DNA of 64,000 nucleotides, taken from assembly GCA_016936355.1 (NCBI GenBank), contig JAFGYB010000023.1:124001-188000 (forward strand). The letters run 5' to 3'. Every line of letters starts with the position of its first letter. Positions within the stretch are counted from its first letter, which is position 1. The position numbers and the translations under genes were made by a program. The notes under the pieces were generated by a model. The model was not told the origin of the DNA and did not search any database. It saw nothing but the letters and a program-made list of their open reading frames with translations. The stretch is from Bacteroidales bacterium. Its GTDB lineage: Bacteria > Bacteroidota > Bacteroidia > Bacteroidales > F082. Below are positions 7,268 through 23,458 of this stretch, one piece after another.

Positions 7268-7858
7268 TTATTTTTTCTTCATTTTCTCCAGCATTATTTG
7301 CCGTTTTTCGGCGTCTTCCATCCTCTTTTTATGATCGTTCTGTGTATCCTTTAACGATTGCCACGACAGAATACTGAACACGCTATCTTTTGCCTTCTTT
7401 TTCACCTTAACCAGTGAATTGTACGCGTTCTGTATTTCATAAAAATAATCCCGGTTGCTTCCCGATTTATAATTGTTGGCAATTCGGGCAGCATATATTT
7501 TTATTGTGTTTGAATACCGGATTCCTTGTTTTAAATAGTATTTCAGTGAACTGATCTTGGAAGAAATCTCACCATAGTCCTGAGATTTTTTCATGTTGGC
7601 CTCATAAGCCAGTGCATTATCATACGCTTCGGTATACAAGTCTTTGACCGTAGCAGCCGTCCGGGATAAGTACCGGGCATTTTGTCCCCGCTGATACCCG
7701 GTATGGGAAGCAACTTTGGTAAGATACTCCCTTTGCCGGCTCATATAATTACCCTTATCAACTTTGTTTAGGGGTGCAAAAACCTCTCCCAAAGATTGAG
7801 CCTGTGCCGATAAAACAAACAAAATTGAACTGAAAACCAGTAGTGTTACTCTTTTCAT
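7268..7858 (-). CDS. Secreted protein of unknown function (last gene of a five-gene operon)
   Basis: This is a 196-residue protein with a signal peptide (MKRVTLLVFSSILFVLSAQA). The mature part is polar and predicted mostly helical, with many Tyr and Lys residues. The C-terminus is a highly charged helix (KKRMEDAEKRQIMLEKMKKK). No known domain was recognised. It lies 29 nt downstream of the 472-residue gene, so it probably ends the operon that starts at 12388. Its stop codon is within two bases of the convergently transcribed tRNA-Thr gene. Confidence 0.75.
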   Translation of the reverse strand: MKRVTLLVFSSILFVLSAQAQSLGEVFAPLNKVDKGNYMSRQREYLTKVASHTGYQRGQNARYLSRTAATVKDLYTEAYDNALAYEANMKKSQDYGEISSKISSLKYYLKQGIRYSNTIKIYAARIANNYKSGSNRDYFYEIQNAYNSLVKVKKKAKDSVFSILSWQSLKDTQNDHKKRMEDAEKRQIMLEKMKKK

Positions 7859-7887
7859 AATCCTACAATCTAACCGTGTAATTAATA

Positions 7888-9306
7888 TTAAAACAATGCT
7901 TCTTTTTCTCCTTTGTACAGTTGGGGAATAATGTCGAAGAAGAGCTTGTACTCGGTATTCTTAAAATATTTGTAATATCCCGAACCAACATTGTCGTCAA
8001 AAGTATTGTAAATATTGGTAAATAAGGATTGGGACATTTTATAATTATTATTTTTTAAAGAGGCGATCGACCGAAAGAGATCGGATTTGGGTTGGTATTT
8101 GCTGTATTGTATGTATGCATAGTGGTTGGTTCTGCTTTTGGGTATATACGACAGAAACTCTTTCTTTTGCCGCGAACCGTTTTGTACATACTCCCCCTTT
8201 ATCTTATCTTCAAACTGATAGGTGATTTTCTTCAGGGGCAGCACCATATTCACTTTACCGGAGGGGACGATGGTGATCTTTAACCCTTCCGGATGGGAAC
8301 GGTCTGAATTGGATTTATGCTGCACACCCGCACTTTTTAACCGGGCTGCCAGCTTACTGTCCTGTATCGCATTATAGTCCACCGTCTTCCGAAGGTTTCC
8401 TGTTTCGATGTAAGGATTGTAATAACTACTCGAAAAACTGTTTTTCATTTTCACATCGCAATGCAGCGTATTCAGGTAGTAATAATAAAATAAACTTCGG
8501 CTAAAAACGCTGTTTTGCCTGCCTGTCCACAACATTTCATCGCCGTCGCCTCCAATAAAAACATTGGAGTAATGGATGCTCTTTTTATACGAAATCTCTC
8601 TTTTTTTTCCGTGGCGCTTCACCTTAATGTGCGCTACGTGTGAGAAGTGAGCAGCGTTGCTGCTTCCGAAATAGATCTTGTCTTTATTCAACCTGTAAGC
8701 CAGTGTTGCGCTGGGAATGGTGTACAGCAGATACTTGTTTCCGTAAAAGATGAAAATTGCCTTTTCGTTCGGACTGGTAGTCAGCTTGCTTCGATAAGTC
8801 AGGAGGTAAGGCTTGCCTTCTTCCAGACTTAAAAACTGATTCAGTTTTTTCTGTATCTGAGGTTCCTTTTTCAGGGCAATGGCCTTGTATTTCTTTTCCT
8901 GTTCCCTTTTCTTTTGGAGGGCCAACAACTTTTCATTCTCCCGGGCCCGCTGACTCTTGGCTGCTTTCTCAATTCTGATAAAATAGTCCAGCGTGGACGA
9001 CCGAACCTGATCCGTCACCTGATTACTGTACTCATTAATGAATAAATTCAACGCGTTCTCGGCTTCAATAAACCGGCTCGTGTTGTAAAGAATCTTAACT
9101 TTTAAACTCAAAATCAAACCATTGGTCCCCTGCAACGACTGCTCTGCTTTTACCAAATAATTCAGTGCTTCTTTGTAGTCATTCTGGTTGAACAATTTTT
9201 GTGCTTCATTGAAATAAATTTTCGCTTTATAATCCCCGCTCACCTGGCCTGTAGCCATGTGGATGCTGACCGTAAACAGCGCAACAAGTATCAAACTGTA
9301 TTTCAT
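7888..9306 (-). CDS. Secreted protein with N-terminal TPR-like segment, unknown function
   Basis: The 472-residue product has a signal peptide ending near MATGQ. Residues 25-110 look like two or three TPR helical hairpins (YFNEAQKLFNQNDYKEALNY). A lysine- and glutamate-rich predicted coiled coil spans about 115-155. The remaining 300 residues are rich in Tyr, Ser and Lys and look beta-rich; no family was recognised. The gaps to its neighbours are 29 and 42 nt, so it belongs to the 12388-7268 operon. A role in envelope assembly with the neighbouring secreted proteins is only an inference from context. Confidence 0.75.
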   Translation of the reverse strand: MKYSLILVALFTVSIHMATGQVSGDYKAKIYFNEAQKLFNQNDYKEALNYLVKAEQSLQGTNGLILSLKVKILYNTSRFIEAENALNLFINEYSNQVTDQVRSSTLDYFIRIEKAAKSQRARENEKLLALQKKREQEKKYKAIALKKEPQIQKKLNQFLSLEEGKPYLLTYRSKLTTSPNEKAIFIFYGNKYLLYTIPSATLAYRLNKDKIYFGSSNAAHFSHVAHIKVKRHGKKREISYKKSIHYSNVFIGGDGDEMLWTGRQNSVFSRSLFYYYYLNTLHCDVKMKNSFSSSYYNPYIETGNLRKTVDYNAIQDSKLAARLKSAGVQHKSNSDRSHPEGLKITIVPSGKVNMVLPLKKITYQFEDKIKGEYVQNGSRQKKEFLSYIPKSRTNHYAYIQYSKYQPKSDLFRSIASLKNNNYKMSQSLFTNIYNTFDDNVGSGYYKYFKNTEYKLFFDIIPQLYKGEKEALF

Positions 9307-9348
9307 TATTTTGTTCGTTTGTTAATAATTTCTTCGTTTCTATTTTTT

Positions 9349-10251
9349 TCACAACTTAACGATCAAAAGGGTAGCTGTTTTTCCGGTTGTAATACTCCAT
9401 TCTTTCTTGGCTATTTTGGCACCCTTATCATCAAAAATTTCAAAAGAGGCAGTATTTGTCCCCACCGATCCCTGATTCAATGCCTTAAAATCAATCCGGT
9501 TCATCCCCCATTTCAAATAGACGGTGATGTACTTCTTTGCCTTGGTCAGGTATAAGTTCGAACGGATAATGGATTTGTTGTTTCGGATCTGGACCCGGTC
9601 TCCGTCTTCTTTGCCGTGGTCCCAGCATACAATTTTCAGGGTCTTGGTTTTGCTTTCTACTTCCCCGATGAATTGATTTCCGGGATTTTTTGAATTACCA
9701 CCTGTACTTTTAGTGTTCTCGTTTGTTTGGTACGACCCTTTTCCTTCCCAGAAAGGGTCTTCGTTGGATTTGCCGGTCGTGTTATTTTTGGTATCGGATT
9801 TCCCTGACCAGAAATCATCTTTTTGTTGCTGTTCTTTTTCAGGCTTCTCTTTGGGTTTTTTCTCCTCCTTTTTTTCCTCTTTGTCGTAAAAGGTATGGGT
9901 AATTCTGGGGTTCTCTCCTCCACGCCTCCGACATTCTTCCTTTGCCCGGGCGATCGCTCCTGAATAATCCGAATATCCGGCGGAGGCTCCCACAATCTGT
10001 CTTCCGTCACTGGACTTACCCACAGCGATGGCCCCATGCCCCTTGCCCGGATAACTCAGGATCACCGAAGGGGTTTGACCTCCTCGTTTGATGCATTCGC
10101 TGTAGGCACAACCGGAAGTATTGGCCCCTCCGTAACAAAAACCATAAGCACCGTTTGTAGTGCAAACATATACGGTAGTCTGTGCTTTTGAGAAAAGCGG
10201 ACCCAGCGCCATCACAAAAAAGAAAAGTGAAAATCGTAGTTTCTTGTTCAT
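9349..10251 (-). CDS. Secreted DUF4189-like protein with C-terminal beta-sandwich-like domain
   Basis: This 300-residue protein has a signal peptide ending FSKAQ. Residues 25-115 contain GAYGFCYGG and HGAIAVGKSSDG followed by a GAIARAKEECRRRGG helix, the layout of DUF4189 (short strands, then an Ala/Cys-rich helix), including several cysteines. Residues 120-195 form a low-complexity Lys/Glu/Asn linker. Residues 205-300 form a compact all-beta-looking unit starting IVCWDHGKEDGDRVQI. The biochemical function is unknown. The linker suggests two independent folded domains. It is the third gene of the 12388-7268 operon. Confidence 0.65.
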   Translation of the reverse strand: MNKKLRFSLFFFVMALGPLFSKAQTTVYVCTTNGAYGFCYGGANTSGCAYSECIKRGGQTPSVILSYPGKGHGAIAVGKSSDGRQIVGASAGYSDYSGAIARAKEECRRRGGENPRITHTFYDKEEKKEEKKPKEKPEKEQQQKDDFWSGKSDTKNNTTGKSNEDPFWEGKGSYQTNENTKSTGGNSKNPGNQFIGEVESKTKTLKIVCWDHGKEDGDRVQIRNNKSIIRSNLYLTKAKKYITVYLKWGMNRIDFKALNQGSVGTNTASFEIFDDKGAKIAKKEWSITTGKTATLLIVKL

Positions 10252-10289
10252 GTGTTTTCTTTTAGTTGAATATCTTTTAATTCCTTACG

Positions 10290-12080
10290 TCATTTAAAAC
10301 TCTTTAAATAACTGCGCATCTTGTCCAAACCGCTTTCGTTGGTGTATACATAATAGCCCAGGTAGTAAGGCGCACGACGATGCTTATCGTATTGATCTTG
10401 GTTCATGATAAAATAAAAATACCCTTTGTGGCCACTGAGCTCTTTCATATCAATCCCTTTGGCACCCCCCTGAATCACAAAACGAAACGAGCTGGCCCAG
10501 CGTTTCTCGCCGTCCACATAGGCGGAAAACCTTTTGTTTAAATCATAGGTTTCAAATGCTTTGACAACCAGTGTTGCACTGTCTGTTACAATCCCCCACG
10601 ATCTCGGATTCCCGATCAGAAAATTAATGGTTTTGCCCCTGGGAGCCTCAAACGGAATGACTACATAGTACTTTCCGTAGATTTTCGTCGCACTATTTAC
10701 CGGATACGATTTCACGCTGATCGTCCGGGTATAACTTACCGGCTTTATCTCTTTCCATTTTTTTCCTGCCGCAATAATCTTACCCGCCAATTCCTTCTCC
10801 CAGTATCCATTCTGCTGAATACCGTTTACATACTGATCCATTCTGAGGAACTTCCCGTCCGAATCATAAATGATCAACGTGCCGTTGCCATTCTTCAGGC
10901 TACCCTTATCCAGTGGCTTTCCCCTGGGGTTCAACAGCGATACCACATGCATCAGTTTTCCCTTGTCGTACTGGCGTTCAGTAAACAAATTCCCGTTTTC
11001 ATAATAATTTTTCCACGTGCCGTTCAATTCGCCCTGAATATAACGGGTCTCCAGTTTTAACTTTCCATTCTCGTAATAGAACTTCCAGTCCCCTGTACTT
11101 TTACCCTTTTCGTATCGGCCCAGGGATGAAACCTTCCCTTTTTCAGTGTATCCTTTAAAATCTCCGTCCAGCTTCCCGTTTTTATAGAATGTATTTTGTT
11201 TTAACTGACCGTTGTCGTAATAATATTTCCAATTCCCTGATTGTTTCCCGGATACATACTGTCCGGATGACATGGTTTTTCCATTGTCAAAATAATTCGT
11301 CCACACTCCTTCTCTTTTTCCGTTTTCGAACTTCCCGAGCACATATAATTTTCCGTTTTTGTGATACGCTTTCCACTCTCCGGTTTCTTTTCCATTATGA
11401 TAACTGCCGATTACATACAGCTGCCCCTTTTCGTAATAGCTTTTCCAGGGACCCACCCTTTGATAATGATTGAAGGAATAAATCAGATGAACCCGACCGT
11501 TATCGTATTTCAAGGTGTCTTCAATTTTTTTCTCCGATGAGGCCAAAGCGGACAACAACATCAAATATTGTTGGTTTCCGGGAAGGAAATTGATTCCTTT
11601 ATAATTATAGAGGATCCGGCCGTTCTGAATAATATAGGACTGATCAGATTCATCCTGCTTATCCAAGATTTTGTAGTACGCCCCCGTAGGCTCGAAAATA
11701 CGGGTACAAGCCAGATCCGATTTACCCATCAGTTCTGATAAATATCTTTCGTTTTTCATTGACCCGTTGTCACTCAAGGTATCCACGTACAGGGCTACGA
11801 CTTTAAAGGAATGTTGTTTGTTTTGCTCTTTAATGAGGGCCTTGATGTTTTCTTTACAACTTTTACATTGATCCTTCAGCGTGACCAAAACAACCGGTTT
11901 GTTCTCCGAAATACCTTTTAAATAGGTGGGGAGCAAGATCTTATTGCCCGTCTCGGTACGGATGGTCAAAGTACCAAATTTTTGGTCCACTTCAGACTTG
12001 GAAACAAGACTGTCACATCCGCTCAAAAACAGGAGGAACCCAACCAAACCGATCAACAGGATAGGGGTACGTTTTTTCAT
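10290..12080 (-). CDS. Lipoprotein with thioredoxin-like domain and seven MORN-type repeats
   Basis: The 596-residue protein has a lipoprotein signal with lipobox LSGC (Cys22). Residues 35-165 resemble a thioredoxin/AhpC fold: a VVLVTLKDQCKSCKENIK segment places a CxxC pair at Cys72 and Cys75 after a beta strand. Residues 210-377 are exactly seven 24-residue repeats of the type GxWKxYYxNGKL, the MORN_2/YwqK pattern. About 220 unassigned residues follow. It should be anchored in the envelope facing the periplasm or the cell surface. The CxxC may make it redox-active, but the nature of the repeat ligand is unknown. It follows the 100-residue membrane protein by 5 nt. Confidence 0.75.
   Translation of the reverse strand: MKKRTPILLIGLVGFLLFLSGCDSLVSKSEVDQKFGTLTIRTETGNKILLPTYLKGISENKPVVLVTLKDQCKSCKENIKALIKEQNKQHSFKVVALYVDTLSDNGSMKNERYLSELMGKSDLACTRIFEPTGAYYKILDKQDESDQSYIIQNGRILYNYKGINFLPGNQQYLMLLSALASSEKKIEDTLKYDNGRVHLIYSFNHYQRVGPWKSYYEKGQLYVIGSYHNGKETGEWKAYHKNGKLYVLGKFENGKREGVWTNYFDNGKTMSSGQYVSGKQSGNWKYYYDNGQLKQNTFYKNGKLDGDFKGYTEKGKVSSLGRYEKGKSTGDWKFYYENGKLKLETRYIQGELNGTWKNYYENGNLFTERQYDKGKLMHVVSLLNPRGKPLDKGSLKNGNGTLIIYDSDGKFLRMDQYVNGIQQNGYWEKELAGKIIAAGKKWKEIKPVSYTRTISVKSYPVNSATKIYGKYYVVIPFEAPRGKTINFLIGNPRSWGIVTDSATLVVKAFETYDLNKRFSAYVDGEKRWASSFRFVIQGGAKGIDMKELSGHKGYFYFIMNQDQYDKHRRAPYYLGYYVYTNESGLDKMRSYLKSFK
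10950..11453 (-). repeat. Seven in-frame 72-bp (24-residue) MORN_2-type repeats
   Basis: Within the lipoprotein gene the segment encoding residues 210-377 is built of seven consecutive 24-codon units. Each begins with Gly-x-Trp/Phe and contains NG/KG at positions 9-10 and a second Gly-Lys near position 21. The units differ in DNA sequence, so this is an old protein repeat rather than a recent tandem duplication. Confidence 0.85.
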
Positions 12081-12085
12081 GTTAC

Positions 12086-12388
12086 TTATTTTGATTTGAT
12101 TTCTTTTTCCAGTCGTATGATGTTTTCCTGCATCTGCCGCCTCTTTTTCTGCATTTCCTTTCGTTGGGCATCGTAGAGTGAATCCCTAACCACCTTTTGC
12201 CGAACAATGCGCAGGCTGTCCCTGTACTTCTGATATTCTTTCCTGGCTTTCACCACCTGCTCGGTATTGTATCGCTGCTGCCGCACCTCCCTTTGGTGAA
12301 TTTTTTTAAACAACAGCAACCCAACCAAAGCAAGGATCATGAATATTTTACCCAATAGGCCTACTGTTTTCTTCGTTTTTCGGTTCAT
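12086..12388 (-). CDS. Small membrane protein with charged coiled-coil tail, unknown function
   Basis: The product has 100 residues. A single hydrophobic helix spans about residues 12-27 (GKIFMILALVGLLLF), preceded by a basic N-terminus (MNRKTKKT). The rest is a very charged, probably coiled-coil helix with heptad-like KARKEYQKYRDSLRIV and KKRRQMQENIIRLEKE segments. It is the first gene of the operon extending to 7268 and lies 69 nt downstream of the paired upstream element at 12458-12497. No family was recognised. Confidence 0.7.
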   Translation of the reverse strand: MNRKTKKTVGLLGKIFMILALVGLLLFKKIHQREVRQQRYNTEQVVKARKEYQKYRDSLRIVRQKVVRDSLYDAQRKEMQKKRRQMQENIIRLEKEIKSK

Positions 12389-12457
12389 GAAAGATTAATT
12401 TTAGGGTGTCGCCTGATGAGACACTGTAAAAAAACAAAAACCCACCCGAATACACGT

Positions 12458-12497
12458 GGTGGTTTTCCGCCAAAGAAAAAAATAGTGGTTTTCAGGG
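12458..12497 (-). promoter_or_regulatory. Paired 14-bp upstream element (site 1 of 3), direct orientation
   Basis: Read on the minus strand, CCCTGAAAACCACT (12497-12484) is followed by GGCGGAAAACCACC (12471-12458), 26 bp apart. The distal copy, with its flanks, is identical over 25 bp to the one at 17372-17396. The pair ends 69 nt before the start codon of the 100-residue gene. The sequence is unlike a TAnnTTTG promoter and is interpreted as a binding site for a regulator. Confidence 0.6.
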
Positions 12498-12626
12498 ATA
12501 GGCACTGAAATGAAGAGTGAAAAATGAAGAATGAAAAAATATTGAAAGTGTATGGCCGTCAGGGTGGGCATGCCGGGAAAGGAAACATCCTCCGGACCAA
12601 TGCCGGGGATTGTTTTTCTTTAATTT

Positions 12627-12658
12627 ATTTTTTGAGAAAATTAATTTTCTCAAAAAAT
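12627..12658. repeat. Perfect 32-bp AT-rich palindrome
   Basis: The sequence from 12627 to 12658 is its own reverse complement, with arms ATTTTTTGAGAAAATT and AATTTTCTCAAAAAAT. It begins 7 nt after the stop codon of the four-gene operon 15777-12666. It lacks a loop and a following T tract, so it could be an unusual bidirectional terminator or a protein-binding palindrome. Confidence 0.7.
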
Positions 12659-12665
12659 AACCTTC

Positions 12666-13193
12666 TTACTTAATAGGCTTATGTGTATTTAAGAATAGCT
12701 CATGAAGTCTTTCGTTCCGCTGCTCTTTTTTTAAGGCCAGTTTGGTTAGATGCTGAAACGCCCGATACAAACGCCTTGGCATTTTATTATCTGCAGTTCC
12801 AGGCAAAGAAAGATTATCGTCCTTTCTTGTAATTTTGACATTAGACGGTTTCGCAGGGCAATCATAGTGCATGGCCACAGCAGGTCCGGTAAAATCTAAC
12901 TCGATACGGCTTTTTTTTGATTTTTTTACCTTTTCCAGTTTTTGTAAATCCGCAACATAAGTTACTTTACAGCGCACATGTTCTTGATTGAGATACTGAT
13001 AGGCTGTAAAAGACAATCGATCGTTGTCTGAAATGTCAAAACTATCCACCTGAAAATAAGTTGAAGATTGCTCCTGAATAAACCCTATGGTTTGTTCCCA
13101 ATCTGATTTAAAACCCTTTTTATGCGAAGGACTCTGTGCAAAAGAAACACTAAGCGTGGTCAGGGCGAATAATAATAAAATTGTTTTTTTCAT
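12666..13193 (-). CDS. Small secreted protein, paralogue of the 13748-14302 product
   Basis: A 175-residue protein with the signal peptide MKKTILLLFALTTLSVSFAQ. That peptide is nearly identical to the one of the gene at 13748. Near the C-terminus, RRLYRAFQHLTKLALKK corresponds to AVSLYKALKHLNSFY in the paralogue, so the two share ancestry beyond the signal. No domain was recognised. Its ATG overlaps the stop codon of the preceding gene (ATGA), a sign of translational coupling. It is the last gene of the operon 15777-12666. Confidence 0.75.
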   Translation of the reverse strand: MKKTILLLFALTTLSVSFAQSPSHKKGFKSDWEQTIGFIQEQSSTYFQVDSFDISDNDRLSFTAYQYLNQEHVRCKVTYVADLQKLEKVKKSKKSRIELDFTGPAVAMHYDCPAKPSNVKITRKDDNLSLPGTADNKMPRRLYRAFQHLTKLALKKEQRNERLHELFLNTHKPIK

Positions 13194-13690
13194 TTGTTAT
13201 GGTCAATATGCCATTGAATTGCATATTCGGCGCTCGAATCTGTAAAATGAGAAACAGAAATCTTTTTAACGGATAAAGTGGACAGGTCTATCACTTTTTT
13301 ATAATTGTAAGCAACTTCATAGTTAGCAAAATATGGTCCGGCTATTTCCTCCTTTGTAAAGCCGTTAGACAGTGTTAGTTTTATCCTCATCCCGGCGGGT
13401 TCTCCAAACACAGACAGATAATCCCCGCTATTTTTATAAAACTTGCCCTTATACCAGTATCCTTTAATCTTTAATGAAAAACCGACATCTGCTTCTAAAC
13501 GATAGGTGGTAGGGCTAGCCATGGTTTGGTGAAAATGAACTGTAAAATTAATGACATCAAAAACATAACCTGTTTGATTTCCATTGCTTACATTGGTTAA
13601 CTGATACTTTTCATATCTGTCATCGTAAACCTGGGCAGATAACAGCCTTGCGGAAAGTAGAATTATAAGAAGAAATAAGTATTTTTTCAT
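13190..13690 (-). CDS. Small secreted protein, unknown function
   Basis: The product has 166 residues from the Met of MKKYLFLLIILLSARLLSAQ, a convincing signal peptide. A start ten codons upstream is possible but would push the signal inward. The mature region is predicted beta-rich (YRLEADVGFSLKIKGYWYKG) with no known motif. It lies between the two paralogous secreted proteins, overlaps the downstream gene by four bases and follows the upstream one by 57 nt. Confidence 0.7.
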   Translation of the reverse strand: MKKYLFLLIILLSARLLSAQVYDDRYEKYQLTNVSNGNQTGYVFDVINFTVHFHQTMASPTTYRLEADVGFSLKIKGYWYKGKFYKNSGDYLSVFGEPAGMRIKLTLSNGFTKEEIAGPYFANYEVAYNYKKVIDLSTLSVKKISVSHFTDSSAEYAIQWHIDHNK

Positions 13691-13747
13691 TTGTTTGTTG
13701 TTTGAAGTATCTCGGGACAAAAGCCAAGTAGCCTCAAATTTTCAAAG

Positions 13748-14302
13748 CTAAAAAGCGTTTTTCAGGGAGAGTTTATTTATAAACTTAATGTCGTAGTTAT
13801 AAAAGGAGTTCAAATGCTTGAGTGCTTTGTACAAACTAACTGCCCTTTTCTTATCAGTAAAGGCAATGCGTATTATTCTACTGACAGTTACTGAGGTCAC
13901 GATAATCACTTCATAATCAACGATAACATCACCATTATAATCTGCCGGAGGAATAACAGCGATACTACTAACTTGTTGTAAGGTAAAATTATTTGTACGT
14001 TGGTATTTCCAAGGCGCTTGATCCAAAGAACTATATATTTGACTATTTTCCTTCTGTGACCATATAGATTTTTCATACGAATTATCAATAAATCTTACTG
14101 TGTTATTATCTATACTAATGCGTACATCTCCTATTTTATCGAGTACACCATTCCCACCATGATCTGTATTCCCCGAAAATCCATAGTAATTCAGCCAGGC
14201 TATGGTTTGATCTAAGGTAGGCCCGTTATCGCCGGTTTGTGCCTGTACAAAAGAAACGCTGAGCGTGGTTAGCGCTACGAGTAAAAAGATTGTTTTTTTC
14301 AT
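13748..14302 (-). CDS. Small secreted protein, paralogue of the 12666-13193 product
   Basis: A 184-residue protein with the signal peptide MKKTIFLLVALTTLSVSFVQ, cut before AQTGDNG. The mature part contains several short predicted beta strands and a C-terminal helix (KRAVSLYKALKHLNSFY) shared with the product of 12666-13193. The signal-peptide region is also very similar at the DNA level between the two genes, suggesting a fairly recent duplication or gene conversion. It lies 53 nt downstream of the 473-residue gene. Function unknown. Confidence 0.75.
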   Translation of the reverse strand: MKKTIFLLVALTTLSVSFVQAQTGDNGPTLDQTIAWLNYYGFSGNTDHGGNGVLDKIGDVRISIDNNTVRFIDNSYEKSIWSQKENSQIYSSLDQAPWKYQRTNNFTLQQVSSIAVIPPADYNGDVIVDYEVIIVTSVTVSRIIRIAFTDKKRAVSLYKALKHLNSFYNYDIKFINKLSLKNAF

Positions 14303-14355
14303 TTGTTTTTGCTTTATCATGATTATAAAATTTTATTGGAAACCTTGGATTAGAA

Positions 14356-15777
14356 TTATTTGGCACTTTTAAAAAGGTTATAGGTTACTCCAAAAAACAG
14401 TGCCGGTTCATAGCGGTCGATATAATTGATTTCCTGATGGAAAGGACTTGTAAAAGTATTGTCTGCATTCAGGTTGCTCCTGTTCAGGCGCTTCACACTT
14501 ACGAAGGATAAACCTGCAGTAAATATAATCCTGTTCTTTTCGGTAAAAGCCAAAGAAACGCCCCCGTAAAAGTTTATTTTCGTATCTGTATTAATGCTGA
14601 TGCCGGTAGATAATCCAAGTTGTGGACCATTATTTGGTCCGTCAAAAAATACGTGGGCGAGTCCGCCGATGGCATGGGTAATTTTATCGGAACTGAGTTT
14701 ATAAACCCCAACCACATCACCCGCATCATTGTATTTGTAATCGTAGGTTTCATTTCCAATGAAACTCAGCATATATCCCGTGCTGAAATTTACTCTGAAC
14801 TTACTGTAGGTTCTAACTGTTATTGTATTAAACTCTTTTACTGTAGAACCATCGTATGCCTTCAGAACCGGCTTTAGGTCCTCCTCATCCTTATTTAGCT
14901 GAACAGCATCTGTATAGAAGGTAAAGGCATTTTGCTTGATAATTTTATGATACAGATTAATCCCATCCTGCGCTTTACTAATCATCTTGGCTTTTATAGT
15001 ATCTGTTTCCAAAGCATCCATGGTGTTTTTTGCAAATTCAAATTCATCAACATATTTCTTCTTTAGCGTCTGTGTCACTTTTGCATCGGAAATGTTGATT
15101 GAATTACCGTGCTTGTCTTTCAGTTCCCCGCTTACTTCAAAGGTCTCTTGTGCGGGCGTTTTATTTGTCGTATCATAAATGTATTTAAGCTCTCCATAAG
15201 TGACTTTGAGGTTCCCTATCTTGCTGGCAATATCGTTGTTGCTTCCAATCGAGTTAAACAGGTTTTTTGCTGATTCTCTAATTAACCCCGTGTCTTGTAC
15301 AAATACACCGTCACCCAATAAATTTTTCAGTTTGTTTTCCAACGAAACAGATTTTTCAATGGACACAAGTTGTTGGATGAATTCTTTGTATTTATTGAAA
15401 AACTCATCCGTATTCTTTTGTTTCTTTGATGAACTACCAGTTGTGTATTGTTGCTCTTCACTTTGTGTTTTAATGTTAAACGTTGAGTCCATCGAAATTG
15501 AATCTTTAGGGGGAATCCCGCTTTTCAATAAACCAGAGAAACTACTTGGTATATTAAAAGAGAGATCTTTACCCGATACTTGTATAGAAACTCCTTCTAA
15601 TTTTAAAAAATTGACATTGTTGATGCGGACTTTCAGCAAACTACCTTTTTTAAATTTTTGAAATGATAAGTTATCTGTGTTATCTTTTCCGAAAGGATTG
15701 ATTGTAATAATTTTTTCCTGTCCCCAACTTACAGAGACAGTCAAAACAAAGGCAAAAAGAAATAGTAGTTTTTTCAT
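14356..15777 (-). CDS. Probable outer-membrane protein with periplasmic N-terminal region
   Basis: The 473-residue product has a signal peptide (MKKLLFLFAFVLTVSVSWGQ). Residues 20-330 are polar with extended helical stretches (a lysine-rich segment around 120-290). The last 150 residues show alternating hydrophobic strands, from FRVNFSTGYMLSFIG onwards, separated by polar loops. It ends EPALFFGVTYNLFKSAK, resembling a small C-terminal beta barrel. It is the first gene of the operon 15777-12666. No family was recognised. A role as membrane anchor for the small secreted proteins downstream is possible but unproven. Confidence 0.65.
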   Translation of the reverse strand: MKKLLFLFAFVLTVSVSWGQEKIITINPFGKDNTDNLSFQKFKKGSLLKVRINNVNFLKLEGVSIQVSGKDLSFNIPSSFSGLLKSGIPPKDSISMDSTFNIKTQSEEQQYTTGSSSKKQKNTDEFFNKYKEFIQQLVSIEKSVSLENKLKNLLGDGVFVQDTGLIRESAKNLFNSIGSNNDIASKIGNLKVTYGELKYIYDTTNKTPAQETFEVSGELKDKHGNSINISDAKVTQTLKKKYVDEFEFAKNTMDALETDTIKAKMISKAQDGINLYHKIIKQNAFTFYTDAVQLNKDEEDLKPVLKAYDGSTVKEFNTITVRTYSKFRVNFSTGYMLSFIGNETYDYKYNDAGDVVGVYKLSSDKITHAIGGLAHVFFDGPNNGPQLGLSTGISINTDTKINFYGGVSLAFTEKNRIIFTAGLSFVSVKRLNRSNLNADNTFTSPFHQEINYIDRYEPALFFGVTYNLFKSAK

Positions 15778-15936
15778 GATTTTAGTTTTGTGATTTTTAA
15801 TCTTTTATTCATCCGTTCGTTGCCAATGAACAATGCTAATAAGACAGTGACGTAACAAAGTGTCTTTTTGATTTCATATAGAAAATGCTGAAAAGTTTAT
15901 TGTTTTAACTCAGCTGCTTTCCTGCAAAAAGGTTTA

Positions 15937-16374
15937 TTAGTCTTTATAATATTCAAATCCATTGATAAATTGCACTTTGGCCCCGTCATCCCTGTATTGG
16001 GCAATGTCTTTTATTAAGGCATTGTGTGCTTTACCATAGGTAGTCTCCCAATTAACGGTAACCCTGCCTTTAACAATGAAGTTGAAATACTTTTTTTTGC
16101 CATAACGTGCTTCAAACTCTTTATCAAATTGATCTTCAATAAATGCATTTCCGGCATCACCGTCCGCCGGAAAAATGTTGGTGACATAGGCCACACCTTT
16201 AGCATTGTTATCTGCACCATAGTTGCTCCAAACTGTTATATAATAATAGAAAGTAGCATTATCAGCTTTTGTCAGGGGGACAGGATTGGGTGACGAAGCA
16301 TTGCTTTTAGACGATAAGGTAAATGTGGCTATAGCGGCCAAAATGAAGGAAAAAATAATTGTTTTTGTTTTCAC
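15937..16374 (-). CDS. Small secreted protein, unknown function
   Basis: A 145-residue protein with a signal peptide (MKTKTIIFSFILAAIATFTL) and a mature part rich in aromatic residues (ATFYYYITVWSNYG). It has no recognised domain. It stands apart from the next operon (159 nt gap) and has its own paired upstream element at 16431-16470, with the proximal half-site 56 nt before the ATG. That places it under the same presumptive control as the five-gene operon and the SUMF1-like gene. Confidence 0.7.
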   Translation of the reverse strand: MKTKTIIFSFILAAIATFTLSSKSNASSPNPVPLTKADNATFYYYITVWSNYGADNNAKGVAYVTNIFPADGDAGNAFIEDQFDKEFEARYGKKKYFNFIVKGRVTVNWETTYGKAHNALIKDIAQYRDDGAKVQFINGFEYYKD

Positions 16375-16430
16375 GATTTAATGTTTTAAAATGAAAACTT
16401 AAAAGAATAATATCCTTTTCAGAAATGCAT

Positions 16431-16470
16431 CCCCGAAAACCACCAAAAAAAAAATTAGTGGTTTTCAGGG
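16431..16470 (-). promoter_or_regulatory. Paired 14-bp upstream element (site 2 of 3), inverted orientation
   Basis: On the minus strand CCCTGAAAACCACT (16470-16457) is followed, 26 bp away, by GGTGGTTTTCGGGG (16444-16431). This is the same element in opposite orientation, so the site is a large inverted repeat. It ends 56 nt before the start codon of the 145-residue secreted protein. Confidence 0.6.
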
Positions 16471-16502
16471 ATGGATAGGAAAGAAAAATGATTATTAAAA
16501 AA

Positions 16503-17291
16503 TTATCGGGACAGGGCTATTCTAAAGCCAACATCGCCACATCTGGAACCGGGGGCATTGCACTGGCGACGTGCTACACGGCAATAATCACGCGTACTGT
16601 ACCAGCCGCCGCCCCGCATCACATGATAGGTACCTGGGGAAAGCCCCTTCGGATTGCTGACCGGGCAGTTGCTGTAATATTTTGCATCGTAACAATCGCT
16701 GCACCACTCCCACACATTACCACTCATATCATACAACCCCAGCTCGTTGTGTCTTTTTTGGGCGACGGGATGCGCATGACCGTTGCTGTTCGTACTAAAC
16801 CATCCGTTGGAAAACAGACTTCTCCCGCCACTGTATTGATGTTCCCGGCTTTGATTCCCTCCGCGGGCAGCATATTCCCATTCCGCTTCGGTAGGCAATC
16901 GGTACCTTTTGCCTGTCTTTGCAGCCAGCCAGCCGCAGTAAGCTACGGCATCATACCAGGTAAGGTTCACCATGGGATCGTTGTCGTACCAACCCCACTC
17001 AGGGGCTTCAGGCATTTTCCTGCCCGTAGCATTGCAGTAGGTACGGTACTGAAGCACCGTCACTTCGGTTTTGGAAATGCTGAAGGTTTTTAAGCTAACC
17101 TTGTGGAGCGGATATTCATCGCTATTGCCCACACCCCATTCATCGCCCATCATAAAACTTCCTCCTTCCACCCACACCATTTCAGGATATTCCAGGTTGC
17201 CCAACCGGAGACTTTCTATGGTGGTCAGGTCCCTGAAACCGAGGGGAAGGAAAAAAACTTCCACAACGAGCAGGAAAATCATTTTTGTCAT
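16503..17291 (-). CDS. Secreted SUMF1/FGE-sulfatase-domain protein, probably not a canonical FGE
   Basis: This 262-residue protein has a hydrophobic N-terminus and then one complete formylglycine-generating-enzyme (SUMF1) fold. It starts MVWVEGGSFMMGDEWG and contains the family landmarks RLPTEAEWEYAARGG, YDMSGNVWEWCSD and VMRGGGWYSTRDYCRVARR. Aligned by eye with human FGE, the second copper-ligand Cys (Cys341) is kept in DYC, but the first (Cys336) falls on Ser in WYSTRD. A complete oxidase is therefore unlikely and a structural or ligand-binding role is more probable. No sulfatase gene is nearby. It has its own upstream element at 17350-17390. Confidence 0.85.
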   Translation of the reverse strand: MTKMIFLLVVEVFFLPLGFRDLTTIESLRLGNLEYPEMVWVEGGSFMMGDEWGVGNSDEYPLHKVSLKTFSISKTEVTVLQYRTYCNATGRKMPEAPEWGWYDNDPMVNLTWYDAVAYCGWLAAKTGKRYRLPTEAEWEYAARGGNQSREHQYSGGRSLFSNGWFSTNSNGHAHPVAQKRHNELGLYDMSGNVWEWCSDCYDAKYYSNCPVSNPKGLSPGTYHVMRGGGWYSTRDYCRVARRQCNAPGSRCGDVGFRIALSR

Positions 17292-17349
17292 GAGAGGAAT
17301 TTATTAATGATACAACATCAAATAAACAAAAGACATTTCGGATTTACAA

Positions 17350-17390
17350 GGTGGTTTTCAGCCATTTTAGAAAAATAGTGGTTTTCAGGG
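17350..17390 (-). promoter_or_regulatory. Paired 14-bp upstream element (site 3 of 3), direct orientation
   Basis: On the minus strand CCCTGAAAACCACT (17390-17377) is followed by GGCTGAAAACCACC (17363-17350), 27 bp apart. The proximal copy is 58 nt upstream of the SUMF1-like start codon. The distal copy with its flanks matches the one at 12484-12497 over 25 bp. Confidence 0.6.
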
Positions 17391-17711: not shown

Positions 17712-17966
17712 ATGAATATTTACGTAGGAAACCTTGACTACAAGGTAAATGAAGACGACCTCAAAAACGTTTTCGAAGAATATGGACAGGTGAGTGACAC
17801 TGTTGTGATTTCAGATAAATTCTCAGGCAGAAGCAAAGGTTTTGGTTTTGTAACCATGGGAAATCAGGCCGAAGCACAAAAAGCTATTGATGAACTAAAC
17901 GGGGCTTCATATGAGAACCGCACCATGGTGGTTAACGAAGCTCGTCCTAAAAAAGACAATTACTAA
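17712..17966 (+). CDS. RRM-type RNA-binding protein
   Basis: The 84-residue product is a single RNA-recognition motif. RNP2 is IYVGNL at residues 2-7 and RNP1 is RSKGFGFVTM at about 40-49, with the aromatic residues that stack on RNA bases. The C-terminus NEARPKKDNY is a short basic tail, without the glycine-rich extension of cyanobacterial Rbp proteins. It is the first gene of an operon with two cold-shock-domain proteins (gap 18 nt), implying a shared RNA-chaperone role in cold or stress adaptation. Confidence 0.92.
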   Translation: MNIYVGNLDYKVNEDDLKNVFEEYGQVSDTVVISDKFSGRSKGFGFVTMGNQAEAQKAIDELNGASYENRTMVVNEARPKKDNY

Positions 17967-17984
17967 TTTTTTAACAACAAGATT

Positions 17985-18185
17985 ATGGCCAAAGGAAAAG
18001 TAAAATGGTATAACGAAACCAAAGGATTCGGATTCATTGAAACGGAAAACGGAGCAGATATTTTTGTTCACCGCTCGGGCTTAGACAGTCCTTTTTCTGA
18101 ATTACAACCCAATGAGGAAGTAGTTTTTGATACCAAACAGGGAGATAAAGGACCGTTCGCAGTTAATGTGAAATCGGCTCAGTAA
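17985..18185 (+). CDS. Cold-shock protein (CspA family)
   Basis: At 66 residues this is a stand-alone cold-shock domain. It begins MAKGKVKWYNETKGFGFIE, with RNP1 KGFGFI and RNP2 DIFVHRSG, and ends GPFAVNVKSAQ. Such proteins bind single-stranded RNA and DNA and melt mRNA secondary structure. It lies between the RRM gene and the longer cold-shock-domain gene. The 99-nt gap to the latter contains no separate promoter of the usual type. Confidence 0.95.
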   Translation: MAKGKVKWYNETKGFGFIETENGADIFVHRSGLDSPFSELQPNEEVVFDTKQGDKGPFAVNVKSAQ

Positions 18186-18284
18186 AATCAGAATGTACAG
18201 GTGCCCTTCATCATTCAACCGGGAGGTGTTGAATGGATAGGGTACTGCACCAATCAATTATTCACAAAAATTTTACCTTATTTT

Positions 18285-18740
18285 ATGGGAAGATCACAGG
18301 AAACATTTAACAAAAAAGAAGTCAGAAACAAACAGGAGAAAAAGAGAAAAGAGAAAGAAAAGAGGAGATTAGCCAAAAAAGAAGAAGATAAGAAAAGCAG
18401 TCTGGACGACATGATTGCCTATGTAGATGAAAACGGCATGATCACCGATACGCCACCTGATCCAACTAAAAAAACGGAAGTAGATCTGGAAGGCATTGAA
18501 TACGGAATTCCGAAAAGAGAGAAAGAGGATGATGATCCGATCAGGAAGGGTACCGTGACTTTTTTCAACGACTCCAAAGGTTTTGGATTTATTAAAGATC
18601 TGAAAACTAAAGAAAGTATCTTTTTTCACATTAAAAATGTTGAAGGTGAAACGACCCTGAAAGAAGGAAACCTGGTTACGTATGAAACCGAGCAGGGTCC
18701 CAAAGGCCCCACAGCCTTTCGGGTAGCTCTATCCAAATAA
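18285..18740 (+). CDS. Cold-shock-domain protein with charged N-terminal extension
   Basis: The start was set at the ATG of MGRSQETFNKKEVRN, giving 151 residues. An in-frame start 28 codons earlier would add an unrelated hydrophobic stretch. Residues 10-40 are almost entirely Lys, Arg and Glu (KQEKKRKEKEKRRLAKKEE), followed by an acidic linker. Residues 87-150 form a cold-shock domain (KGTVTFFNDSKGFGFI, ESIFFHIKN). The layout matches the Bacteroidota family annotated as cold-shock proteins with basic N-terminal tails. It is the third gene of the operon and is followed by a strong terminator. Confidence 0.88.
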   Translation: MGRSQETFNKKEVRNKQEKKRKEKEKRRLAKKEEDKKSSLDDMIAYVDENGMITDTPPDPTKKTEVDLEGIEYGIPKREKEDDDPIRKGTVTFFNDSKGFGFIKDLKTKESIFFHIKNVEGETTLKEGNLVTYETEQGPKGPTAFRVALSK

Positions 18741-20737: not shown

Positions 20738-22669
20738 TTATAAATTAGCCTTTCCCGGCTGTACATTGGGACAGAGTACCTGAACCAATACTCCCTTTCC
20801 GGGCGAACTTTGAATGTGCATGCTCCCTTTCAGGAATTCAACACGGTTGCGGAGTCCGGAAAGTCCCAGCCCCCGCGACTTTTTTGCTTCCTTCATATCA
20901 AACCCTTTTCCGTTGTCCCTGTACTCGAAACGGATCTCATCCCCTTGCAAAAAACAGGCGATATCCACTTCGGATGCTTCCGCATGTTTCAGCGTATTGT
21001 TCAGTAATTCCTGGGTCAGCCGGTAGATCATAAATTCCATGGTTTCGGAAAGGCCTTTTCCAATCTTCACCCTGAGTTCCACCGACAATTCATCAGAAAC
21101 CTTATCCACCATATCTTCCAGGGCAGCTTTCAAGCCGAACCGCGACAAGACCACAGGCATCATGTTGTGTGAAATTCTTCGCACCTCGGTATTGGCTTTA
21201 TCTACCAGATCCCTGGCTTTTTGCAGGTTTTTTTCCCTTTCGGGATTGAGGTCTTCATCCAGATTGGTAATAAAAATACTGGCCGACGACAACAGAACAC
21301 CCAGCCCGTCGTGCAACTCGCTGGCAATCCGTTTCCGCTCATTTTCCTCTCCCTTCAACAGGTACTGGGCAACCGTTGCTTCTTTTTCTTTTTGCAGCAG
21401 GGCCACTTCCTTTTCCCTGATTTTTTTGTCCTTTTTCTGTTTGTAAAAAAAGAACCAGACTAATAAAATGATGATGAGTAACAACGTAAAGCTACTACCC
21501 AGCAAGGTATTCATCTGGATCCGTCGGGTGCTTTCTTCCAGTTCGCCTTGAAGTACCTGGTTTTTCAGGCGGATTACTTCACTTTCCTTTTGGCCTGCCT
21601 GGTATTTTACGCGCAGTTCCATTAGATAATTCTGCTTGTGCCGAACCTCGCTGTTTTCGTTTGCATTGATTAATTGCTGCATGTAATACAGAGCCGAATC
21701 CAGTCTTCCTTTTTGCTTCCAGGCACCAACCAGTGTTTTATAATAGGTTTCATAATCAATCCGGTCCCGCAATTGGTTTGTGGTATGCCGGATGGCATTC
21801 AGCAGACGAATGGCTGTTTCAGGTTTCTTTCGGTACAGCTCGGTTTCCGCTTTCCAGATGATAATGTTTGTTTGCATCAGCGTGTCCTGGTTCATAGCAG
21901 CCACCACAAGAGCGCTGTCGTAGTTCTTCAGTGCAGCGGTCCATTTCAGATGTTCTTTATAATCCTCTGCCTGTGACAAATAGTAAGAGGCCGTCTTGTT
22001 TCCGGTTAGTTTGGTATGCGAAACTTTCGCTTCCAGTAAACGATAGCGGTTGGCCGAATCCATCCTGTTTTTCCGGCGAAACAGTCGGGCCATCATTAAA
22101 TAAATGTTTTGCTCAAGCGAAGTATTCCCGCTTTTAATGGACCACGACAGTGCCTCCCGGAAATAATGCAATGCCTTATCCTGATCGGAAAGCCGGGAAT
22201 AAATCAATGCCAAGTTATACGAACTAACCGACAACCCCTGACTGTCGCCCAGTTCAGACGAGATTTGATGGGCCTGTTGGAAACAGGTAATCCCTTCCAG
22301 TAATTTTTCCTGTCGAAAAGCACTCATCCCCATTCCTTCATACGCTGCCGCTTCGGTTTTTTTCCAACTGTTTTCACGGCTCAGCTTCAATACGTTTTCA
22401 TTGAGGAAACGGGCACTGTCAAATTTTCTCTGATAAAGAAAAAGGGAGGCCAGCCGCAGGGCCGCCTGGCAATAAATTTCGTTTCCTTCGTTGTCATCAG
22501 CCAACACCATGGCCTTCCTTAAGTAAAACTCTGTGGAATCCATCTTTCGCTGTTGCTGAAAAACCATGCTTTTTTGCAAACAGGAGTGGGCCAAATTCAG
22601 CTTCTTCAGGTCGGAAGCCGAAAGACTGCCGACCACAAAAAAGAGAAAAAGGAGTAGAAAGAGCCGCAT
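20738..22669 (-). CDS. TPR-containing NarL-class sensor histidine kinase
   Basis: The 643-residue protein has a signal peptide. About seven TPR units span residues 25-340 (periplasmic), one transmembrane helix lies at 388-408 and a coiled coil follows. The HisKA_3 dimerisation helix contains ELHDGLG with the phospho-acceptor His453. The HATPase_c domain has the N box NNTLKHAE, RDNGKGFD and RGLGLSGLRNR. It phosphorylates NarL-type response regulators. The gene starts 4 nt after the stop of such a regulator, which is frameshifted here. The TPR sensor suggests it recognises a protein or peptide in the periplasm. Confidence 0.92.
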   Translation of the reverse strand: MRLFLLLFLFFVVGSLSASDLKKLNLAHSCLQKSMVFQQQRKMDSTEFYLRKAMVLADDNEGNEIYCQAALRLASLFLYQRKFDSARFLNENVLKLSRENSWKKTEAAAYEGMGMSAFRQEKLLEGITCFQQAHQISSELGDSQGLSVSSYNLALIYSRLSDQDKALHYFREALSWSIKSGNTSLEQNIYLMMARLFRRKNRMDSANRYRLLEAKVSHTKLTGNKTASYYLSQAEDYKEHLKWTAALKNYDSALVVAAMNQDTLMQTNIIIWKAETELYRKKPETAIRLLNAIRHTTNQLRDRIDYETYYKTLVGAWKQKGRLDSALYYMQQLINANENSEVRHKQNYLMELRVKYQAGQKESEVIRLKNQVLQGELEESTRRIQMNTLLGSSFTLLLIIILLVWFFFYKQKKDKKIREKEVALLQKEKEATVAQYLLKGEENERKRIASELHDGLGVLLSSASIFITNLDEDLNPEREKNLQKARDLVDKANTEVRRISHNMMPVVLSRFGLKAALEDMVDKVSDELSVELRVKIGKGLSETMEFMIYRLTQELLNNTLKHAEASEVDIACFLQGDEIRFEYRDNGKGFDMKEAKKSRGLGLSGLRNRVEFLKGSMHIQSSPGKGVLVQVLCPNVQPGKANL

Positions 22670-22673
22670 AGAA

Positions 22674-23296
22674 TCAATCGGTTAGTTCGTTTTCAACAGC
22701 CCATTTAACCAACCCGGCTATGTTGCGGGCACCGGTTTTCTGCAATAAATTTGACCGGTGGGTTTCCACAGTATGCAGGCTGATAAACAGCTGATCGGCA
22801 ATTTCCCGCGTATTCTTTTCCTGACAAATCAGTTTCAGCACCTCCAGTTCTCTGTGAGTGAGTATGGGATCAAACCCGGATTTGGGTTTTCGCTCTCGGG
22901 CATAGAAATCGGGGAGCCCTTTTCCCAGATAAACAGAACCTTCGTGTACCAGTTTGACGGCCTTGATTAATTCGCGAACCGGTGTACTTTTCAGTAAATA
23001 GCCCCGGGCACCTGCTTTCAGCATTCTCTTAATGAAGTGTTTATCGTCGTACTGCGAAAAAGCAATCACTTTTACCGCAGGATAGGATTTGCGCAGTTTC
23101 TGGGTGCCTCAATACCATCCATATCGGGCATATTGATATCCATGATCACCACATCCGGCTCTTTATTCATCACCTTGAGCAGTTCTACCCCACTGGAAAC
23201 TTCATCCAGCAATAAAACCTCCTCATCCTTCTGAATGGCAGAACGCATTCCTTCAATGATGAGCGGATGGTCATCGGCTATGATGAGTTTGATCAT
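22674..23296 (-). pseudogene. NarL/LuxR-type response regulator broken by a one-base frameshift
   Basis: Two frames together make one regulator. 23296-23072 encodes the receiver start MIKLIIADDHPLIIEGM with phospho-Asp53 (VVIMDINMPDMDG). The frame 22674-23069 continues VIAFSQYDDKHFIKRM and ends in a LuxR-type helix-turn-helix (LTHRELEVLKLI, SLHTVETHRSNLLQKTGA). The break is near 23104-23107, where GAGGCACCCAG would need one extra base to read GIEATQKLRKSYPAVKV. Repaired, the protein would have about 207 residues, the normal length. It could be a genuine mutation or a sequencing/assembly error. It is cotranscribed with its TPR kinase. Confidence 0.85.
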
Positions 23297-23380
23297 GAAT
23301 GTATGTTATGAATTGGTTTACAATATAAAGATTTATTGACCCCAAAACGAGTTTTGAGCCCAAGAAAAGCAAATTAATGA

Positions 23381-23414
23381 ATTTTCGGGGGAATATTTAT
23401 AGCGGAAAACCACT
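23381..23414 (-). promoter_or_regulatory. Inverted GAAAA/TTTTC element upstream of the regulator gene
   Basis: Minus strand: AGTGGTTTTCCGC (23414-23402), then ten bases later CCCCGAAAAT (23390-23381). The arms match the half-site core of the elements at 12458, 16431 and 17350 (AGTGGTTTTC and its complement), less perfectly in the second arm. It ends 84 nt upstream of the response regulator start and could mediate autoregulation. Confidence 0.4.
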
Positions 23415-23458
23415 AAAAAAATCAAATAGCTGAAACCGGGGAGGGATTGAAATGTTTA

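Follow-up and report, generated by a model that had tools for sequence, protein, structure and literature searches.

A 64,000-nucleotide stretch of a Bacteroidales bacterium genome (contig JAFGYB010000023.1, positions 124,001 to 188,000; here called the window) carries three copies of a paired 14-bp element upstream of genes and a fourth copy ahead of a response regulator gene. We consider, with a probability of about 0.85, that these elements serve as operators for a single two-component system of the NarL/LuxR type, whose genes also lie in the window and which would activate, besides its own operon, a limited number of exported proteins. The module has a fixed geometry, lies close to promoters and is linked to one clade of regulators. 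We regard it as the mark of a real and previously undescribed autoregulated NarL-type regulon with an unusually legible promoter architecture. Among the papers listed by literature searches none dealt with the motif or the regulon, and of the listed matches holding the 10-mer none was evidently about it.

A pattern search of the window located exact copies of the 14-mer CCCTGAAAACCACT at 12484-12497, 16457-16470 and 17377-17390, each of them on the minus strand. These three, all inside 5 kb, are the only exact copies in the whole genome of 3,100,855 bases; three further copies carry one mismatch, and no second box was visible by eye in their contexts. Each exact copy (box 1) is followed by a T-tract and a second box, which is direct in operator 1 (GGCGGAAAACCACC, 12458-12471) and operator 3 (GGCTGAAAACCACC, 17350-17363) and inverted in operator 2 (GGTGGTTTTCGGGG, 16431-16444). 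The start-to-start spacing is 26 bp in operator 1 (12458..12497, minus strand), 26 bp in operator 2 (16431..16470, minus strand) and 27 bp in operator 3 (17350..17390, minus strand). From the end of the pair to the start codon of the transcription unit behind it there are 69 nt (ATG), 56 nt (GTG) and 58 nt (ATG), respectively. The triple occurrence, the second copies and the distances to the genes had been described in an initial annotation of the window and were all borne out, and the 25-bp identity that it noted between two distal copies is visible in the sequence. Its label of half-site did not hold, since the 14 bp make up a complete box that is nearly a palindrome, and its list of three elements, all of them real, was incomplete, as a fourth module lies at 23401-23441. 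When up to three mismatches to the 14-mer were allowed, the window gave 17 matches versus 7.4 ± 2.8 in shuffled sequences, none of 100 shuffles reaching 17. The paired pattern GAAAACCACN8-20GAAAACCAC had three matches in the genome: two of the window pairs and one on a different contig (L026), which appears by eye to be coding.

The box is an imperfect palindrome, AGnnG-N4-CnnCT, so that it makes no difference whether the second copy is direct or inverted. The whole module is rigid: a T-tract separates the two boxes, and a −7 element of the Bacteroidetes type (TAnnTTTG) begins 37 bp past the second box. The corresponding elements are the −7-like TTTTTTTA (12427-12434) in operator 1, the −7-like TTCTTTTA (16400-16407) in operator 2 and the −7 element TTTATTTG (17319-17326) in operator 3. 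A profile trained on other genomes matched the three operators in the window with E-values of 5.6e-14, 2.6e-14 and 1.3e-12, respectively.

The core GAAAWCCRCTANTTTT had 22 exact and 44 one-mismatch matches in nine genomes that bear the regulator, versus 43 for the reversed control at the same tolerance. The exact-core sites were intergenic in 20 cases, and the other two lay in mechanically called open reading frames (ORFs) of 85 and 103 aa, so the motif does not show the scatter inside genes that the initial annotation had named as speaking against an operator. The one-mismatch cores were within ORFs in 29 cases and intergenic in 15. A curated set of 30 sites includes seven of these 15 and the two-mismatch site G394_C80; none of the eight intergenic sites dropped from it had a second box or a TTTG. 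As this curation was done by eye, the unselected exact-core sites, picked regardless of a second box, are the fair test. Among them, the best second box out of 30 offsets fell at 26 or 27 in 18 of 22, and TTTG stood at box 2 + 41 in 14 of 22. The curated set gave 25 of 30 for the second box (300 shuffles: mean, 2.0; maximum, 6) and 20 of 30 for TTTG (59 other offsets: mean, 0.22; maximum, 3), counts that are to be read with the sites as not independent, the promoters often being paralogous or orthologous.

The same picture was seen in 62 collected sites, some of which were recruited with the −7 element as a component of the model. The second box stood at 26 in 30 sites and at 27 in 18, and it was direct in 29 and inverted in 33, a near-parity expected of a palindromic box. 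TTTG peaked solely at offsets 67 and 68, and the position of the −7 element shifts with the spacing, from 63 at a spacing of 26 to 64 at 27. Complementary pairs in box 1, from the outermost inward, numbered 26, 41, 13, 16, 59, 8 and 12 of 62, so box 1 is an imperfect palindrome that is strong at three of seven pairs. The Bacteroidetes sigma-A −7 box (TAnnTTTG) lies at −12 to −5 (PMC9723704), which puts the box centers at about −69.5 and −42.5. With box 2 beginning exactly 37 bp before the −7 region, this is an activator-like placement.

The window encodes a candidate regulator and its cognate kinase. A frameshift of one base, near 23,100, divides the gene of the NarL/LuxR-type response regulator (22674..23296, minus strand) between two frames, one holding the receiver part (23071-23296) and the other the receiver end and the helix-turn-helix (HTH) region (22674 to about 23110). 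Both parts remain well conserved and together hold the receiver and LuxR-type HTH domains of a NarL/FixJ-type regulator, with Pfam matches to Response_reg (2.6e-14 on 23071-23296) and GerE (2.6e-17 on 22674-23069) in different frames. Directly downstream lies a TPR sensor histidine kinase of 643 aa (20738..22669, minus strand; TPR_12, 4.1e-15; HisKA_3, 1.3e-10; HATPase_c, 2e-11). When the regulator of stretch L042 was used as the query against this genome, which encodes several NarL-type paralogues, the best match was in the window, where residues 65-207 are 56% identical and residues 1-74 are 47% identical.

The fourth module stands ahead of this regulator gene. Operator 4 (23401..23441, minus strand) has box 1 at 23428-23441 (CCCCGGTTTCAGCT), a T-tract, box 2 at 23401-23414 (AGTGGTTTTCCGCT) with a spacing of 27, and a −7 element, TTAATTTG, at 23370-23377; it lies 104 nt before the regulator's ATG, and the outside-trained profile matched it with an E-value of 9.9e-6 in the window. 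A model trained on sites from outside the window ranked the three known operators on top (45.5, 43.8 and 39.9) and this one next (18.3), and the same model reached at most 14.1 on 12 simulated windows. The −7 element TTAATTTG is found precisely at +64, a position that was not used in detecting operator 4. The stronger argument for the site is that it precedes the regulator gene, as modules do in the relatives L031, L034, L038, L042, L043, L242 and L247, and we propose that it is a putative autoregulatory site of the two-component system.

The linkage of the module to the regulator was seen from both directions. A scan of 84,980 species genomes with CCCTNAAAACCACTANTTTT returned 19 stretches, 14 of them in Bacteroidetes or Chlorobiota. 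In five of the 19 (L031, L034, L038, L042 and L043), the site lay about 50 to 120 bp before a gene for a protein of about 107 aa. The next gene encodes a NarL-type regulator of 208 aa, and in four of these five it is succeeded by one for a long protein that looked by eye like a TPR kinase. In the reverse test, where genomes were picked by the regulator (at least 49% identity) and not by the motif, the module was found within 1.5 kb in six of seven. It was also present in G067, with a regulator 46% identical; seven other genomes with regulators 43 to 47% identical had no module beside the regulator. An evenly drawn sample of the phylum (395 genomes) held 12 genomes with a regulator at an E-value of 1e-50 or better, up to 49% identical, and none had an adjacent module. 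Within the order, regulators at an E-value of 1e-49 or better were found in 18 of 393 genomes. Exact CCCTGAAAACCACT also occurred in 18 of the 393, mostly in coding sequence by eye, and one match, L012, repeated the surroundings too. Neither a close regulator nor the motif was present in G250 or in four genomes from the same family as the window (G101, G201, G286 and G349).

Scoring of 60 regulator loci gave at least 16 in 16 of 20 clade loci and in none of the 40 outside; module-bearing clade loci scored 16.4 to 40.2, and the outside loci had a maximum of 14.6. Three of the four low-scoring clade loci are second, tandem regulators of module-bearing operons. In the tree, all module-bearing regulators, the three tandem ones, that of G172 and that of the window fell in one group of 20 (support, 93/91), and a Trp in the HTH region was found in 20 of 20 clade members and in 0 of 40 regulators outside. 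Profile R1, trained without the window sites and covering 133 first-look candidates per genome, had a best E-value of 2.4e-6 or lower in 17 of 17 clade genomes and of 3.1e-4 or higher in 17 of 17 controls; for G000, no further R1 match was better than an E-value of about 0.1 among the matches listed. The operons of the regulator's clade carry the same module, and the window's regulator falls in this clade, which supports the suggestion of the initial annotation that the elements are operators of an uncharacterized regulon and its guess that a NarL-type regulator reads them.

Two observations were made beside this linkage. A conserved protein of about 107 aa (106 to 120 aa) opens the regulator operon in L031, L034, L038, L042 and L043 and is absent from the operon of the window; the one member scanned had no Pfam match. 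Flavobacterium sp. 9AF (L039:1287-1390) has one conforming module, in which the eye reads a spacing of 26 with TTTG at +63, whereas the script gave a spacing of 27. It lies between a NarL-type regulator, which it closely follows and which has 36% identity to the query, and an exported protein of 178 aa.

Several points weigh against assigning the operators to this two-component system. The core GAAAWCCRCTATTTTT is not enriched across the order, where 393 genomes gave 28 matches versus 24 for the control pattern in reverse, so that signal and chance are separated only by the longer core together with the regulator linkage, and not by the motif alone. In the clade member G172, the regulator locus is near a contig end and lacks an adjacent module, the modules of this genome being elsewhere. 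The score cut of 16 was chosen after the scores were known, and two members lie close to it (16.4 and 17.6); the 93/91 support for the clade is below the star of the program; and among the 17 clade genomes only G000 and G172 were absent from the training of the profile. The genome-wide E-value of operator 4 (4.8e-4) is at the level of the best control matches (3.1e-4 and 4.5e-4), and a second scorer mispaired this site and gave it 21.0, inside the range of 20 simulated windows (maximum, 23.4). At the fixed distance from box 2, operators 3 and 4 have TTTG and operators 1 and 2 only TTTA, the elements TTTTTTTA and TTCTTTTA being poor −7 elements. Finally, the frameshift in the regulator gene may be an assembly error or a real and recent inactivation, which would make it a pseudogene.

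A different transcription factor that merely co-occurs with the two-component system might also bind the boxes. The genome has several NarL-type paralogues, and one of them, a full-length protein at C15:52783-53409 with 41% identity, ties with the window regulator by E-value (1.5e-50 versus 1.6e-50), the two being told apart by identity and by the tree. The conforming site of Flavobacterium sp. 9AF, beside such a distant regulator, would also fit this explanation. We consider it improbable, however, because the module follows one clade in both directions of the test and precedes the operon of the clade regulator itself, in the window and in relatives, whereas no module was seen alongside the C15 regulator (L050; score, 6.2). 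Repression by the same regulator is very improbable in our view. Box 2 lies directly upstream of the promoter and could hinder the polymerase, but its center at about −42.5, the position of box 1 farther upstream and the rigid 37 bp from box 2 to the −7 element make up an activation geometry, and such a box geometry goes with activation at NarL/RcsB-type promoters. We give hardly any weight to an element acting at the RNA level or as a repeat, such as a hairpin, an attenuator or a dispersed family. Operator 2, with its inverted boxes, could alone fold as a hairpin, whereas the direct orientation of the boxes in operators 1 and 3 precludes this; moreover, the module is upstream of the inferred transcription start, and the T-tract and spacing vary by just 1 bp. 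The reading as a dispersed repeat family was rejected, given three exact copies in the genome, none of them dispersed, and the intergenic location of most exact-core sites, the exceptions being in short mechanical ORFs. An RNA hairpin and an element for a sigma factor only were likewise rejected on the grounds that direct and inverted pairs both occur and that the distances follow rules.

For the two-component system of the window, we infer binding, phosphorylation, activation and the presence of a signal. The TPR histidine kinase would phosphorylate the response regulator, which would then bind each 14-bp imperfect palindrome as a dimer. Two dimers would sit 26 to 27 bp (about 2.5 turns) apart across the T-tract, and from about −69.5 and −42.5 they could touch sigma factor and RNA polymerase, replacing the −33 element and leading to activation. 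In this way the system would switch on the operon that encodes it, along with a limited number of exported proteins.

The predicted targets in the window are three transcription units on the minus strand. Downstream of operator 1 is a putative five-gene operon (7268..12388) for proteins of 100 aa, 596 aa (MORN repeats and a weak AhpC/TSA-like N terminus, with an E-value of 0.0029, under the Pfam cut-off), 300 aa (DUF4189, below the cut-off), 472 aa (TPR, below the cut-off) and 196 aa. Operator 2 precedes a predicted secreted protein of 145 aa without a Pfam family (15937..16374), and operator 3 precedes a SUMF1/FGE-like protein of 262 aa (16503..17291; Pfam FGE-sulfatase, 6.4e-58). Divergent from operator 3, at 17712-18740, there are by eye an RNA-recognition-motif protein and then two cold-shock-domain-like proteins.

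Elsewhere, we inspected 37 of 44 profile matches, having dropped six opposite-strand overlaps and one adjacent weak match; 36 of the 37 were intergenic, a set in which several matches belonged to the training set. The proteins downstream of the modules were mostly exported by their look. They include Ni-superoxide dismutase (3e-26), whose starts lie 268 to 283 nt from box 1, farther than usual, and glutathione peroxidase (1e-41). Three genomes have AhpC/thioredoxin-like proteins at such places, and two, with a third by eye, have C1 peptidases; there are also small lipoproteins with a tail like a type IX secretion system (T9SS) domain, and small secreted proteins without a family. In L099 and L100, stand-alone lipoproteins of about 150 to 180 aa cluster beside two tandem regulator-kinase pairs; each has a separate operator and a tail resembling a T9SS sorting domain. 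On inspecting the targets, we noticed a redox or envelope-stress theme, which we put forward as a hypothesis. It is tentatively conceivable that a clade-restricted, widely scattered and self-activating NarL/TPR-kinase system of uncultured Bacteroidetes runs a defence regulon of the envelope and secretome against oxidative or thiol stress through one rigid two-dimer module readable from sequence, with the Ni-superoxide dismutase, glutathione peroxidase, thioredoxin-like exported proteins, C1 peptidases and stand-alone T9SS-domain-like lipoproteins as members.

Most members of the regulon are exported proteins without any family. The rigidity of the module (box, 26 to 27 bp, box, 37 bp, −7) makes the regulator, its binding site, the promoter and the targets predictable jointly from uncultured genomes, so that secreted proteins of this unknown kind can be assigned to one regulator and to a stress hypothesis open to testing. 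The clade is also a natural set for studying the fit between HTH residues and box, with its specific Trp and with His, Asn or Tyr before TVE in the recognition helix. To our knowledge, very few operators are known for the many NarL-type regulators of Bacteroidetes. NarL/FixJ (LuxR-type) regulators use short palindromic dimer boxes, such as the 7-2-7 sites of NarL and the 14-bp box of RcsB. The system described here resembles them in its REC and GerE domains, the 14-bp imperfect palindrome, the tandem dimers upstream of the promoter and the autoregulation of the operon, the last two as predicted here; it differs in the box AGnnG-N4-CnnCT, the fixed tandem of 26 to 27 bp with a T-tract, the Bacteroidetes-type promoter and a kinase with a TPR sensor part. 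PorXY and other two-component systems of Bacteroidetes control secretion. Two-component control of exported proteins, predicted here, is shared with PorXY, whereas PorX is not known to be of NarL type, as the window regulator is, and the targets are other ones. As at the class II-type activated promoters of Bacteroidetes sigma-A (PMC9723704), the module shows a −7 sequence, TnnnTTTG or TAnnTTTA, whose distance from box 2 is constant; unlike there, the activator box fills the stretch directly upstream of the −33 position.

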